Part shown: positions 24,965-29,544 of the stretch, one piece after another | How the letters are laid out: the number at the start of each line of letters is the position of its first letter | Numbering within the stretch: the stretch's first letter is position 1 | Origin: Ammonifex degensii KC4 | GTDB lineage: Bacteria > Bacillota > Desulfotomaculia > Desulfotomaculales > Ammonificaceae | Length of the DNA stretch: 64,000 nt | Assembly: GCF_000024605.1 (NCBI RefSeq) | Contig: NC_013385.1 | Span: 2,060,175-2,124,174, forward strand | Reading direction: 5' to 3' | The notes under the pieces: model-generated | What the model was told of the DNA's origin: nothing | The model's database searches: none | Seen by the model: only the letters and a program-made list of their open reading frames with translations | Position numbers and translations under genes: made by a program

Positions 24965-25204
24965 CTACTCCATGTCAGTGGTCTCGGCTTCCCTTCCCTT
25001 CAGGCAGTACATGGTGGTGCTGCCCGTAGAGAAGTAGGCCACCTTGTCCTCGTTCACCAGTTCGTTGCAGGCCTTCTTGATGTCGCGCGTGCTGGCATCC
25101 GGGAACTTCTGCTTCACAGCCTTCTCGATGTCCTTGAAGTAGTGCTTCGACTTTTTAGCATTAGTGAGGTACTCGACAATGGCGTTCTTGATGTCCTCTA
25201 GCAT
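24965..25204 (-). CDS. dsrD: Dissimilatory sulfite reductase accessory protein DsrD
   Basis: A 79-residue winged-helix protein of the DsrD family (EDIKNAIVEYLTNAKKSKHY; KKACNELVNEDKVAYFSTG). DsrD accompanies dsrAB of reductive-type sulfate/sulfite respirers and is reported to stimulate DsrAB turnover. The ATG at 25204 has AAAGGGG nine bases upstream and gives the family length (78 in Desulfovibrio). Its presence after dsrB argues that this Dsr works in the direction of sulfite reduction rather than sulfur oxidation. Confidence 0.95.
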   Translation of the reverse strand: MLEDIKNAIVEYLTNAKKSKHYFKDIEKAVKQKFPDASTRDIKKACNELVNEDKVAYFSTGSTTMYCLKGREAETTDME

Positions 25205-25228
25205 GCAAATCAACCCCTTTTTACTCTA

Positions 25229-26413
25229 CTATATCCCGCGCGCCGCCTTAGAAACCTCCCACGCTGCCTCCGTGAACCGGAACTGAGTACTGGTCCGGTA
25301 GGTATCAAGAGCCAGACGGTAGTCGTCCAGCAGGTGATAGGTAAAGGGAAGCTCACAGAGCTCAAAGAACTTCTCCCAGCCGATCCGCTCGGCCCAGTCA
25401 CCCAGCCGCTCGTACTTCCGCGCGTGCTTGGCGTAGGTCTCCAGGATCTTCTTGACGGTCTGGCACACCTCCGGGAAGCGCGGGAAGTTGTTGGGCAGGT
25501 AGGCCACTACTACCTTGGAGAACTTCGGCGGCGAGATGCGGTTGGAAACCTTGCCGCCTGCCACGATGGCGACGCCGTCACCTTCCTTGTCGGCGATGGG
25601 CAGGGCCGGGCACATGGTGTAGCAGTTACCGCAGAACATGCAACGATCTTCCCGGATCTTCACCGTCTTCTTGCCGTCGGGAGTAGTAGCCGGCGAGATG
25701 GCACCCAGCGGGCAGGAAGCGATGACCGTCGGAATCTCGCATAGCTTAGCCACGTACTCCGTGTCGATAGCCGGAGGCTTGCGGTGGATACCCACCATGG
25801 CGATGTCCGAACAGTGTACGGCACCGCACATGTTGAGGCAGCACGCCACCGCAATCCGGACCTTGGCCGGCAGGGTCATGCTCTGGAAGTAGTCGAAGAG
25901 TTCGTCCATGAGAGCCTTTACCATCGAAGAGGCGTCGGTAGCCGGCGTGTGGCAGTGCACGTAACCCTGCGTGTGCACGATGTTCGATACGCTGCAGCCC
26001 GTGCCGCCAATGGGGAACTTGTAGCTCCCGGAGTAGAACTTGCGGCTAGCCAGCTCTTTCTTCAGCGCCTCCAGCTTCTCTTCGCTGTCCACCATGAACT
26101 CAATGTTGTTCCGGGTGGTGAAGCGCACATAACCGTCGCAGTACTTGTCGGCGATGTCGCAGATCTCCCGCACGAAAGCTACCGACATGGTGCGCATACC
26201 ACCCACACGCACCGTGTAGACTTTCTCCCCCGTCTCCGACACGTGCACCAGCACACCCGGCTCCAAGATCTCGTGGTAGAGCCACTTGCCATAGTTGCGC
26301 TGGATAACGGGCGGGAAAAACTCCCAGAAGTGACGCGGCCCTATATCCGTTATGCGATTCTCATGCGGCTTTTCCGGATTGAAGACACCAAACCGAGTGG
26401 TAGAAAGGCCCAT
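25229..26413 (-). CDS. dsrB: Dissimilatory sulfite reductase beta subunit
   Basis: The 394-residue beta subunit forms, with DsrA, the siroheme enzyme that reduces sulfite toward sulfide, handing intermediates to DsrC. Siroheme/[4Fe-4S] ligands lie in VHCH (Cys154) and CCLNMCGAVHC (Cys191, 192, 196). An inserted ferredoxin domain follows, with Cys234 and CMFCGNCYTMC (Cys258-268). These features identify the catalytically active subunit. It lies 15 bases downstream of dsrA and 24 upstream of dsrD. The dsrC gene is not in this window. Confidence 0.98.
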   Translation of the reverse strand: MGLSTTRFGVFNPEKPHENRITDIGPRHFWEFFPPVIQRNYGKWLYHEILEPGVLVHVSETGEKVYTVRVGGMRTMSVAFVREICDIADKYCDGYVRFTTRNNIEFMVDSEEKLEALKKELASRKFYSGSYKFPIGGTGCSVSNIVHTQGYVHCHTPATDASSMVKALMDELFDYFQSMTLPAKVRIAVACCLNMCGAVHCSDIAMVGIHRKPPAIDTEYVAKLCEIPTVIASCPLGAISPATTPDGKKTVKIREDRCMFCGNCYTMCPALPIADKEGDGVAIVAGGKVSNRISPPKFSKVVVAYLPNNFPRFPEVCQTVKKILETYAKHARKYERLGDWAERIGWEKFFELCELPFTYHLLDDYRLALDTYRTSTQFRFTEAAWEVSKAARGI

Positions 26414-26428
26414 TCTTCCCCACCTCCC

Positions 26429-27853
26429 TTATCTCGCGTGCCGCGACCGGTAGTCGTTGATGTCGCGCTTGAAGCCGCCCGGCACGTCTTCTTCTTTCCA
26501 GAAGATGTAGGGGTTGGCCCGCGGTGCCCAGACCATCTGCGGCGCCGGCGGCAGACCAATGGCATCCAGGAAGCGCCACAAGCCCATGCGCTGGATGAGC
26601 TCGCCCAGGCGCTCGCGGTTCTTCCCTTCTTCCATCCACACTTCCCAGATCTTTTCGATGAGCTCCTTGAGGTTGTCGTAAGGCGGCTCCAGCTTCATGA
26701 AGGGAACCAGCACCATGGAAAGCTGGGCACCCTCCAGGATGGGAGCCTTGCCGCCTACCATGACACAAGCACCGGTGTCAGTACCCGGACGCAGCGCCCG
26801 CGGCATCACGTTGATGCAGTGCATGCAGCGGACGCAGTTCTCGTCGTCAATGTAAAGCTCTTCACCCTCCAAGCGCATGCACTTGGTGGGGCAAAGGTCG
26901 ATGACCTCTTTCTGGATGTCGAACTTGCCCCAGTCCCGGCCCCGGTGTGCCCCAGCATTGGGGATGAGATCTCCCTTGATGTAAGCCCGCACGGCATCCT
27001 GGTCGATGCGAATCTTATCCCGCCAGATGCCGATGACCGAAAGGTCCGCACGGGCGACGGAGGCCACGCAGTCGTTGGGGCAACCGCTGAACTTGAACTT
27101 GAACTTGTAGGGGAAGGCCGGACGGTGCAGCTCGTCCTGGAAGTGCATGGTGAGTTCATAACAGACGTCCTGGGTGTCGTAGCAGGCGTACTCGCAGCGC
27201 GCCCTACCTACGCAGCACTCGGGCGTGCGCAGGTTGGAACCCGAACCACCCAGGTCCTGGCTGAGATGATGGGCCATCTCCTGGAAGATGGGCTCCAGCT
27301 GCTCAGTAGTGGTACCCAAGAAAATTAGGTCACCAGTAGAGCCGTGCAGATTCATGATACCGCTGCCGCGGAACTCCCAGAGGTCGCAGATGGCCCGCAG
27401 GAAATCAGTCTTATAGAACTTGCTGGCAGGCTGGTTTACACGGATGGTGTGGAAGTGGGCGATGCCGGGGAACTTGTCCGGGAGGTCGGAGTACCTTCCG
27501 ATGACTCCGCCACCGTAACCGATGACGCCTACGATACCGCCGTGCTTCCAGTGGGTTTCACCGTGGACGAAGGAGAGTTCTACCTGACCCAGAAGGTCTT
27601 CTACCACATCGCGGGGAATCATCATCCGATCATCGGCCAGCTTGCGGCGGCGCCAGGCTTCTACTTTGAGGTCCGCCACGAAGCTGGGCCAGGGCCCCGA
27701 CTCCAATTGCTCCAACAGGGGAATATCGTGCTTAATCTTGAAGTTTTTCATTTCCTCGTCGGTGGGATTGCGCAGCTCTTCGTCCGTATAGATACGCAGC
27801 TCTTCGTACTTTATCTCTTTCTGGGGAACTTTTGGCTTAAACATGGCTCTCAA
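26429..27853 (-). CDS. dsrA: Dissimilatory sulfite reductase alpha subunit
   Basis: The 474-residue alpha subunit of cytoplasmic dissimilatory sulfite reductase. CCVGRARCEYAC (Cys213-224), a further Cys231 and SGCPNDC (Cys258, 262) are the siroheme and cluster region; the ferredoxin domain contains CPTKC (Cys321, 325) and CVRCMHC (Cys340-346). The TTG at 27853 has AAAGGGGG six bases upstream; an ATG three codons later is the alternative. Transcription is probably from the consensus promoter at 28024-28052, giving a leader of about 165 bases that contains a Rex-type operator. Confidence 0.98.
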   Translation of the reverse strand: MRAMFKPKVPQKEIKYEELRIYTDEELRNPTDEEMKNFKIKHDIPLLEQLESGPWPSFVADLKVEAWRRRKLADDRMMIPRDVVEDLLGQVELSFVHGETHWKHGGIVGVIGYGGGVIGRYSDLPDKFPGIAHFHTIRVNQPASKFYKTDFLRAICDLWEFRGSGIMNLHGSTGDLIFLGTTTEQLEPIFQEMAHHLSQDLGGSGSNLRTPECCVGRARCEYACYDTQDVCYELTMHFQDELHRPAFPYKFKFKFSGCPNDCVASVARADLSVIGIWRDKIRIDQDAVRAYIKGDLIPNAGAHRGRDWGKFDIQKEVIDLCPTKCMRLEGEELYIDDENCVRCMHCINVMPRALRPGTDTGACVMVGGKAPILEGAQLSMVLVPFMKLEPPYDNLKELIEKIWEVWMEEGKNRERLGELIQRMGLWRFLDAIGLPPAPQMVWAPRANPYIFWKEEDVPGGFKRDINDYRSRHAR

Positions 27854-27985
27854 CCGCTGCCCCCTTTCTCCTCAGCAGGAATTCTAAAAAGAAAGACCAC
27901 CCAGATCCTGCAAAACTACCTTCCCGCCGCGCTACTGGCTTTTACCCACCTCCTTTTCTTTGGCCAGACCCTTCCCTTTAAGGTC

Positions 27986-28003
27986 TTGTGCTTGCGTGCA
28001 CAA
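27986..28003. promoter_or_regulatory. Rex-type operator in the dsr leader
   Basis: TTGTGC and GCACAA are exact inverted arms separated by six bases, making the 18-bp TTGTG-N8-CACAA pattern of the redox repressor Rex. It lies about 14-31 bases downstream of the expected dsr transcription start, where a bound repressor would block elongation. Confidence 0.65.
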
Positions 28004-28011
28004 CCCCGGAA

Positions 28012-28026
28012 AATCTCAGTGAGATT
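28012..28026. promoter_or_regulatory. 15-bp palindrome over the dsr start site
   Basis: AATCTC and GAGATT are perfect inverted arms around AGT. The site overlaps the -10 box by three bases and covers the expected +1, so it is positioned as a repressor operator. The regulator is unknown. Confidence 0.5.
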
Positions 28027-28052
28027 ATATTATGGGTGCAAAAGCTTGTCAA
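28024..28052 (-). promoter_or_regulatory. Consensus sigma-A promoter for dsrABD
   Basis: On the minus strand TTGACA (28052-28047), a 17-base spacer and TATAAT (28029-28024) match the consensus in all twelve positions. Such a strong promoter fits a gene for an abundant respiratory enzyme that is controlled by repressors. Confidence 0.88.
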
Positions 28053-28109: not shown

Positions 28110-28868
28110 TTAAGCTTGCTTAGACTCCATGAGCCGGCGTACCAAAGCCAAATCGGAAGGTTTGTCCACGTCCACCCCGATTTCGGGTATTTCGGCTATC
28201 ACTGCCTTGCCGCGCACTTCAAGCAACTCCGAAGCTTTCCTTTCCGCCTCGGCCAGCGAAAGCTTACCTGCCAGGAAGCGGAGAAGCAGCCCCGGTCCCA
28301 AAAGCCAAGCTAGGCGCAAAGGGTTTTTACGGTAGGCCACCAGTTTCTCTGCTTGCTTAAGGCAGCGGGCCAGGGCCGCCGGCTGGACCAGGCCCACGTT
28401 TCCGCCGGTAAATACCCCCTCGCGCAGGCGTACGTAGGTGCGCTTAATACCCGGGTAGCGGCTTTCCAGCACCGAACGGGGTATGATCGGGTAGTAAACT
28501 TCGGCCTCCGGTCGGCACAGGCCAAGAAAAGCGTTAACTGCTGCGGGGGTAAGTAGAGGAAGGTCTCCCGTCACCACCAGGACCTTGGGGGCATCGGCCA
28601 CCAGGGGCAAGACGGAGGACAGGTTTTCCAGCAACTTTCCTTTAGGCGGAACAAAAGTCAACCGGCTGTCTCTCGGGTAGGCTCGGGCCAGCTGCTCCGG
28701 GGCCACAACCACTATCCGGCTTATGTCCTCGGTTGTCAGGAGGGCGTCCAGGACATAGGCAGCAAGCGGCCTCCCTCCCACCTCGATCAGGGCTTCAAAA
28801 GGGGCAGGACTCACCTCGCGCAGGTACCCGTCATTGGGGGCGCCGGCCAGCACTATCGCGGGAATCAT
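28110..28868 (-). CDS. MobA-like nucleotidyltransferase
   Basis: A 252-residue Rossmann-type NTP transferase. The nucleotide-binding start IPAIVLAGAPNDGYL and the metal-binding VVTGDLPLLTPAAVNAF are seen, and VDVDKPSDLALVRRLM is a typical C-terminal motif of this group. Substrate cannot be told: molybdopterin, sugar phosphate and phosphoenzyme precursors are all used by relatives. It forms an operon with ispE and a GntR gene upstream (38-base overlap with the latter), an arrangement known in related Clostridia. The dsr promoter lies just before it, pointing away. Confidence 0.8.
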   Translation of the reverse strand: MIPAIVLAGAPNDGYLREVSPAPFEALIEVGGRPLAAYVLDALLTTEDISRIVVVAPEQLARAYPRDSRLTFVPPKGKLLENLSSVLPLVADAPKVLVVTGDLPLLTPAAVNAFLGLCRPEAEVYYPIIPRSVLESRYPGIKRTYVRLREGVFTGGNVGLVQPAALARCLKQAEKLVAYRKNPLRLAWLLGPGLLLRFLAGKLSLAEAERKASELLEVRGKAVIAEIPEIGVDVDKPSDLALVRRLMESKQA

Positions 28869-29544
28869 TTTCCCCCTCCTGAAGTAGGCTTGCCAGCAAA
28901 TTGCTCTCGGCGTTTTCTATGTGCTCCCGAGCCAGCTGGGCCGCCAACTCAGCTTGCCGCTCCGATATGGCCTCCACGATCTTTTTGTGCTCTTCGATGG
29001 TCTCCCTGGTGCGCCCGGGGCGGGAGAGGGTGGTCAGGCGAAACCGGTGGATCTGGTCCTGAAGGTTGGAGATGATCTGCACCAGGCGGTCGTTGCGGCT
29101 TGCCCGGTATATGATCTCGTGAAAACGGGTGTCCAGAGAAACGATAGCCTCCAAGTCGTTGGTCTCCATGACCTCGGCCAGTTCCACCAGAGAGCGCTCC
29201 AAAGCCTCCAGCTCTTCCTCCGTTATGCGCTCCGCCGCCAGACCGGCCGCCAGGGCCTCCAAAGCCGCCCGCACTTCAAAAATGTCGGCTATATCTTTGG
29301 CGCTGAGCCCGGCCACGTAGGCCCCCCGGCGCGGGAGCATCACCACCAGACCCTCCAGCTCCAGCTTGCGTAGGGCCTCGCGTACGGGGGTGCGGCTCAC
29401 CCCCAGTTCTTCGGCCAGCTGGAGCTCCATGAGCCTTTCTCCCGGCTTGAGAATCCCCTTGATTATCGCTTCCCGCAGGGATTCAAAAACCACGTCCCGC
29501 AAAGGCTTGTAGTTATCCAACTTAACCGGCAGAAGTCGCCGCAT
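28831..29544 (-). CDS. GntR-family (FadR type) transcriptional regulator
   Basis: A 237-residue regulator with an N-terminal winged HTH (LREAIIKGILKPGERL; AEELGVSRTPVREALRKLEL) and an all-helical FCD effector domain (DIADIFEVRAALEALA; LDTRFHEIIYRASRN), where conserved Asp/His residues usually bind a metal and a small carboxylate. It overlaps ispE by 23 bases at its start and the nucleotidyltransferase at its end. The ligand is unknown. Self-regulation of the ispE operon is possible but not shown. Confidence 0.92.
   Translation of the reverse strand: MRRLLPVKLDNYKPLRDVVFESLREAIIKGILKPGERLMELQLAEELGVSRTPVREALRKLELEGLVVMLPRRGAYVAGLSAKDIADIFEVRAALEALAAGLAAERITEEELEALERSLVELAEVMETNDLEAIVSLDTRFHEIIYRASRNDRLVQIISNLQDQIHRFRLTTLSRPGRTRETIEEHKKIVEAISERQAELAAQLAREHIENAESNLLASLLQEGENDSRDSAGRRPQ

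Follow-up and report, generated by a model that had tools for sequence, protein, structure and literature searches.

A candidate Rex operator behind the dsrABD promoter of Ammonifex degensii and its relatives

The dsrABD operon of Ammonifex degensii KC4 carries in its leader an 18-bp inverted repeat that we read, at a probability of roughly three in four, as an operator through which Rex, which senses NADH/NAD+, would repress transcription until relieved by NADH. The repeat itself, its fixed distance from the promoter, a set of sister sites elsewhere in the genome and an intact rex gene are all observed. A Rex-type operator had been proposed at this place by a sequence-only reading of the window, the whole stretch of 64,000 nucleotides analyzed here. 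The proposal now draws comparative support from the rex gene, the conservation of the site, its rank on a Rex matrix and the sister sites.

The dsr Promoter and the 18-bp Site

The site, TTGTGCTTGCGTGCACAA, lies at 27986–28003 and reads TTGTGCACGCAAGCACAA on the coding (minus) strand; we annotate it without strand as a candidate Rex operator on the grounds of its sequence, its matrix score and its conservation in relatives. It has the geometry of Rex operators, TTGTG-N8-CACAA over 18 bp, and its arms, TTGTGC and GCACAA, are perfect over 6 bp around a 6-bp centre. The sequence-only reading had both sequence and coordinates exactly right. The genes downstream, all on the minus strand, are dsrA, encoding the dissimilatory sulfite reductase alpha subunit (26429–27844; TIGR02064; start ATG taken at 27844), dsrB (25229–26413; TIGR02066) and dsrD (24965–25213; PF08679). 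Ahead of the site is a minus-strand promoter spanning 28052–28024, TTGACA-17-TATAAT, which agrees with the consensus at 12 of 12 positions, as the earlier claim of a consensus promoter before the dsrABD leader site implied. Its −35 box (28047–28052) is conserved in relatives as TTGACAAG, and its −10 box, also a consensus match, is at 28024–28029. With the transcription start taken 7 nt past the −10 box (inferred, near 28016–28017), the site spans about +14 to +31, the same 14 to 31 bases past the expected start that had been claimed for it. This placement just after the promoter suits repression.

The leader has other features. A 13-bp palindrome, ATCTCACTGAGAT on the coding strand (28013–28025), lies over the inferred transcription start; it is identical in Ammonifex thiophilus and absent from the other genera compared. 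Within 27840–27990 on the minus strand, about 110 nt before dsrA, there is a second strong Shine–Dalgarno-like run, GGAGGTG, with no conserved reading frame after it. Such a run recurs at about −70 to −140 in many relatives and in Deltaproteobacterial MAGs with a Bacillota-like dsrA, and similar runs occur in the sat and apr leaders. It may be a ribosome-binding mRNA stabilizer or the start of a leader peptide. Two genes upstream of dsr is a GntR/FCD gene (28831–29544), a conceivable regulator of dsr that we do not favour; regulators of that family have operators with much shorter spacers.

The exact pattern TTGTG-N8-CACAA occurs once in the window, at the dsr site, versus 0.05 expected from dinucleotide shuffles, which bears out the statement that the window holds no second such site. 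Since 5 of 100 shuffles of the window also contained an exact match, its bare presence is only mildly unusual, and when up to two mismatches are allowed, the window shows no enrichment (11 found versus 14.9 expected). A genome-wide scan, which had been proposed as a check, returned only two exact matches. Perfect repeats with 6-bp arms and a 6-bp spacer, whatever their sequence, are not rare in the window either (24 found versus 16 expected), so what carries weight is where the site lies, how it is conserved and what type of sequence it has. Those numbers are what could be said for a functionless chance palindrome, but its position is kept across genera and it ranks first of 63,983 positions on a matrix taken from the literature, and we find this explanation scarcely credible.

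Conservation of the dsr Site

The host genome (G000) is 2.16 Mb in size, and its nearest named relative is A. thiophilus, with a DsrA 97% identical. There the site is TTGTGCGCGCAAGCACAA, and the promoter ahead of it is identical. Orthologous dsr promoters beginning TTGACAAG are also found in three genomes of the same family (G002, G004 and G006) and one of another family (G022), followed at +14 to +19 by TTGTACGATTCGGAGCAA, TTGTACGGATAAGAACAA, TTGTGCAGTCGGGAACAA and TTGTGCAGTTTGAAACAA, respectively. An operator-like site at a fixed distance behind an orthologous dsr promoter is thus present in six genomes, including G000, from two families; in a seventh, G016, the site covers the −10 box. The leader between promoter and site has diverged among these genera, which marks the site as an element retained in its own right. 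In G002, the site is degenerate and does not reach significance against shuffles (p 0.12), and in G003, the dsr promoter is present with no site found. Most other members of the order are without such a site upstream of dsrA, which makes it a trait close to the family level rather than order-wide. Conservation upstream of dsrA in close relatives, on which the sequence-only reading had staked its proposal, is thereby found, and at a fixed promoter distance.

The same comparison bears on whether the repeat acts as RNA, by forming a hairpin at the leader's 5′ end. The repeat of Ammonifex is able to fold, at −6.4 kcal/mol. However, the fifth pair is an uncompensated A-A or G-A in G002, G004, G006 and G022; G022 loses the sixth pair too, the minimum free energy of the G006 site is 0, and an Rfam search of the dsr leader gave only a chance miRNA match. 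A leader hairpin fails because the pairing is lost in the relatives, and we regard it as very improbable.

The Rex Protein and the Rex Matrix

A single rex gene, as the proposal of a Rex operator had anticipated, is present in the genome and intact. Its product of 220 residues (L001, 994–1656, minus strand) scores 331 bits against the NCBIfam Rex equivalog model (cut-off 217), is closely similar to Rex proteins whose structures are known and has an intact DNA-binding domain. Rex is present in 40 of the 41 genomes of the set. Relatives that have Rex-like sites at their rex promoters share with Ammonifex an identical Rex recognition region of 22 residues, so a shifted Rex specificity is not evident. 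Several rex promoters of other families (among L245–L256) carry a site of the TTGTGAAT type immediately behind the −10 box, which suggests autoregulation; in Ammonifex, the rex promoter is without a clear one.

We scored the window with a half-site matrix derived from 12 operators in the literature, of which eight come from Streptomyces avermitilis (PMC5355995) and four from Desulfovibrio sat and apsAB (PMC545781); the latter four were first labelled as HcpR sites, and the placing of Rex at apsAB is our own. The dsr site comes first of all window positions at 15.8 bits, and the runner-up has 9.7. The literature operators score 15.9 to 24.4 bits on the same matrix, with 15.9 also the score of the weakest one tested by EMSA, which would place dsr among Rex sites of weak to moderate strength. 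Scores on the matrix are poor for the G002 and G004 dsr sites. Compared with the half-site TTGTGAA, both dsr halves have C at position 6, and only the left has A at position 7; that left half is the same as in TTGTGCACGCGTTCACAA, an operator of S. avermitilis at which Rex has been footprinted (PMC5355995). The Rex of S. aureus binds less well when positions 6 and 7 are changed and prefers a centre rich in A/T (PMC2883068). Because the dsr centre is G+C-rich and each half has C at position 6, the affinity for Rex may be modest.

The operator TTGTGCACGCGTTCACAA begins with the same ten bases as the coding-strand dsr site. The rex-hemAC1DB operator of S. avermitilis has TTGTGCACGC in common with the dsr site and differs from it in a canonical right half, TTCACAA. 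Since TTGTGCACGCGTTCACAA is one of the twelve matrix operators, this ten-base likeness and the matrix score overlap as evidence. S. avermitilis also offers a parallel for position: Rex footprints lie downstream of the transcription start at cydA1 and wblE (PMC5355995), and at cydA1B1CD, the operator is past the start as at Ammonifex dsr. The Rex target genes of S. avermitilis serve aerobic respiration, whereas Ammonifex dsr serves sulfate respiration.

Sister Sites in the Genome

The broader pattern TTGT[AGT]-N8-[ACT]ACAA occurs six times in G000, versus four for the reversed control pattern, and five of the six sites are directly upstream of genes: dsr, apr, atp, an HTH-trxA pair and a sulfite-reductase-like gene. 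The aprB site, TTGTTAAAATAACCACAA (L097), lies over the −10 box of aprBA. The atpZ site (L007) is ahead of the ATP synthase operon. Another (L002; contig C1 of G000, 1653772–1656789) precedes a gene for three HTH_3 domains, with a thioredoxin gene next in line, and the last (L202) precedes a NIR_SIR siroheme sulfite-reductase-like gene followed by a DsrE-like gene. The sites at dsr, apr, atp and HTH all recur in A. thiophilus. The apr site has an identical geometry, −17 to +1, in G000, G003 and G004, and by eye the same in G001 and G006, for five genomes in all; in G006, the promoter was read by eye as TTGACA-17-TAAAAT, the −35 box chosen by the script being wrong. The atp operon is also a Rex target in S. 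avermitilis (PMC5355995) and so is common to the targets there and the Ammonifex sister sites. The sites at aprBA and the ATP synthase operon fit reported Rex targets and in that way support the Rex reading of dsr.

Some further elements were seen near these genes. The L002 site is the second exact TTGTG-N8-CACAA of the genome, adjoins thrS and is kept in A. thiophilus. At about 1336–1376 of L007, roughly 140 bp upstream of the atp-operon site and at the end of a wecB-like gene, are two palindromes, GTGCTTGCGAGCAC, which is close to the dsr site, and TTTTGTGCTCCGGCACAAAA. The sat leaders (L192, L193, L195, L197, L198 and L199) share an element that is weaker but conserved, GTTCNNNTAATCACAA; this putative operator lies between about +33 and +85 and shortly precedes a GGGAGGTG-like run. 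We gave up a CsrA-type reading of ACAAGGAG, which is found at the sites of atp and the sulfite-reductase-like gene, since the dsr and sat sites have no GGA at that place.

The half-sites at dsr and apr are not quite alike: the dsr type tends towards TTGT[GTA]C, versus the Rex-like TTGTTAA of the apr left half. This difference would fit a regulator other than Rex, distinct from that of apr and with a TTGT-N10-ACAA operator, acting at dsr. Nevertheless, the 18-bp geometry and the TTGT/ACAA ends are common to dsr and apr, C at position 6 is known from a footprinted Rex operator (PMC5355995), and no candidate protein was found. We consider a separate dsr regulator unlikely.

The other regulator to be weighed is a CRP/FNR protein of the HcpR kind, for which the consensus published in Desulfovibrio, TTGTGANNNNNNTCACAA, has the same geometry as the dsr site. 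Desulfovibrio sat and apsAB sites of this consensus were first assigned to HcpR, a CRP/FNR protein (PMC545781), and G000 encodes two CRP/FNR proteins, L111 and L112. But unlike what that assignment would lead one to expect, one genome with a dsr site has no recognizable CRP/FNR member: G004, which is 99% complete and has rex together with both the dsr and the apr site, gives no more than weak partial matches to HTH_Crp_2 (30.8 bits at best), and a search at E ≤ 1e-6 found no L111 homologue in it. The incomplete genomes G006 and G022 agree with G004. By eye, the recognition helix of L112 has P where Arg180 would be, a feature tied to a different motif in the HcpR paper (PMC545781), and that of L111 keeps R180 with Q at the Glu181 position and S at that of Arg185. 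A site downstream of the transcription start is also ill-suited to activation. A genome with Rex and no recognizable CRP/FNR protein weakens the HcpR-type explanation, and we think it quite improbable.

Discussion

Returning to Rex, we envisage that the protein, ligand-free or with NAD+, would occupy the stretch from about +14 to +31 downstream of the dsr promoter, where it would block RNA polymerase from clearing the promoter or passing. As NADH builds up, Rex would release the site and dsrABD would be transcribed. Rex would also act on aprBA, the ATP synthase operon, the HTH-thioredoxin pair and the siroheme sulfite-reductase-like gene, such that ATP synthesis and the last steps of sulfate respiration would rise together with reducing power. 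We infer the binding of Rex, the repression and the relief by NADH from the comparisons above.

That Rex controls genes of sulfate reduction is already known from Desulfovibrio. In D. vulgaris, Rex represses sat by experiment, with relief at high NADH/NAD+, according to the account in PMC7531388 of Christensen et al. 2015. The sat operator there is an inverted repeat with a geometry like that of the dsr site, and it too serves a sulfate-reduction gene. The differences are that D. vulgaris belongs to the Desulfobacterota and the predicted sat site overlaps the −10 box (PMC545781), whereas in Ammonifex, a member of the Bacillota, the gene set is dsrABD and the site is behind the start. Work published in 2024 on sulfate reducers from both Bacillota and Desulfobacterota pointed only to Rex at Desulfovibrio sat (PMC11451228). 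What the putative sites described here would add beyond Desulfovibrio is dsr as a target, a Bacillota family and a conserved place behind the promoter.

The dsrAB genes are the marker for sulfate reduction, and their regulation in Gram-positive sulfate reducers is poorly known. From the sister sites, dsr probably belongs to a common regulon with apr and ATP synthase. More tentatively, and with the odds somewhat against it, dsr, apr, sat, ATP synthase and the thioredoxin operon may form one NADH-gated unit in this Bacillota family, under Rex or a regulator whose half-site is shifted to TTGT[G/T]C. If so, redox state would directly set the capacity for sulfate reduction and ATP synthesis. If the Rex operator at dsr is real, the NADH level would be linked to expression of the terminal reductase in a thermophilic Bacillota sulfate reducer.
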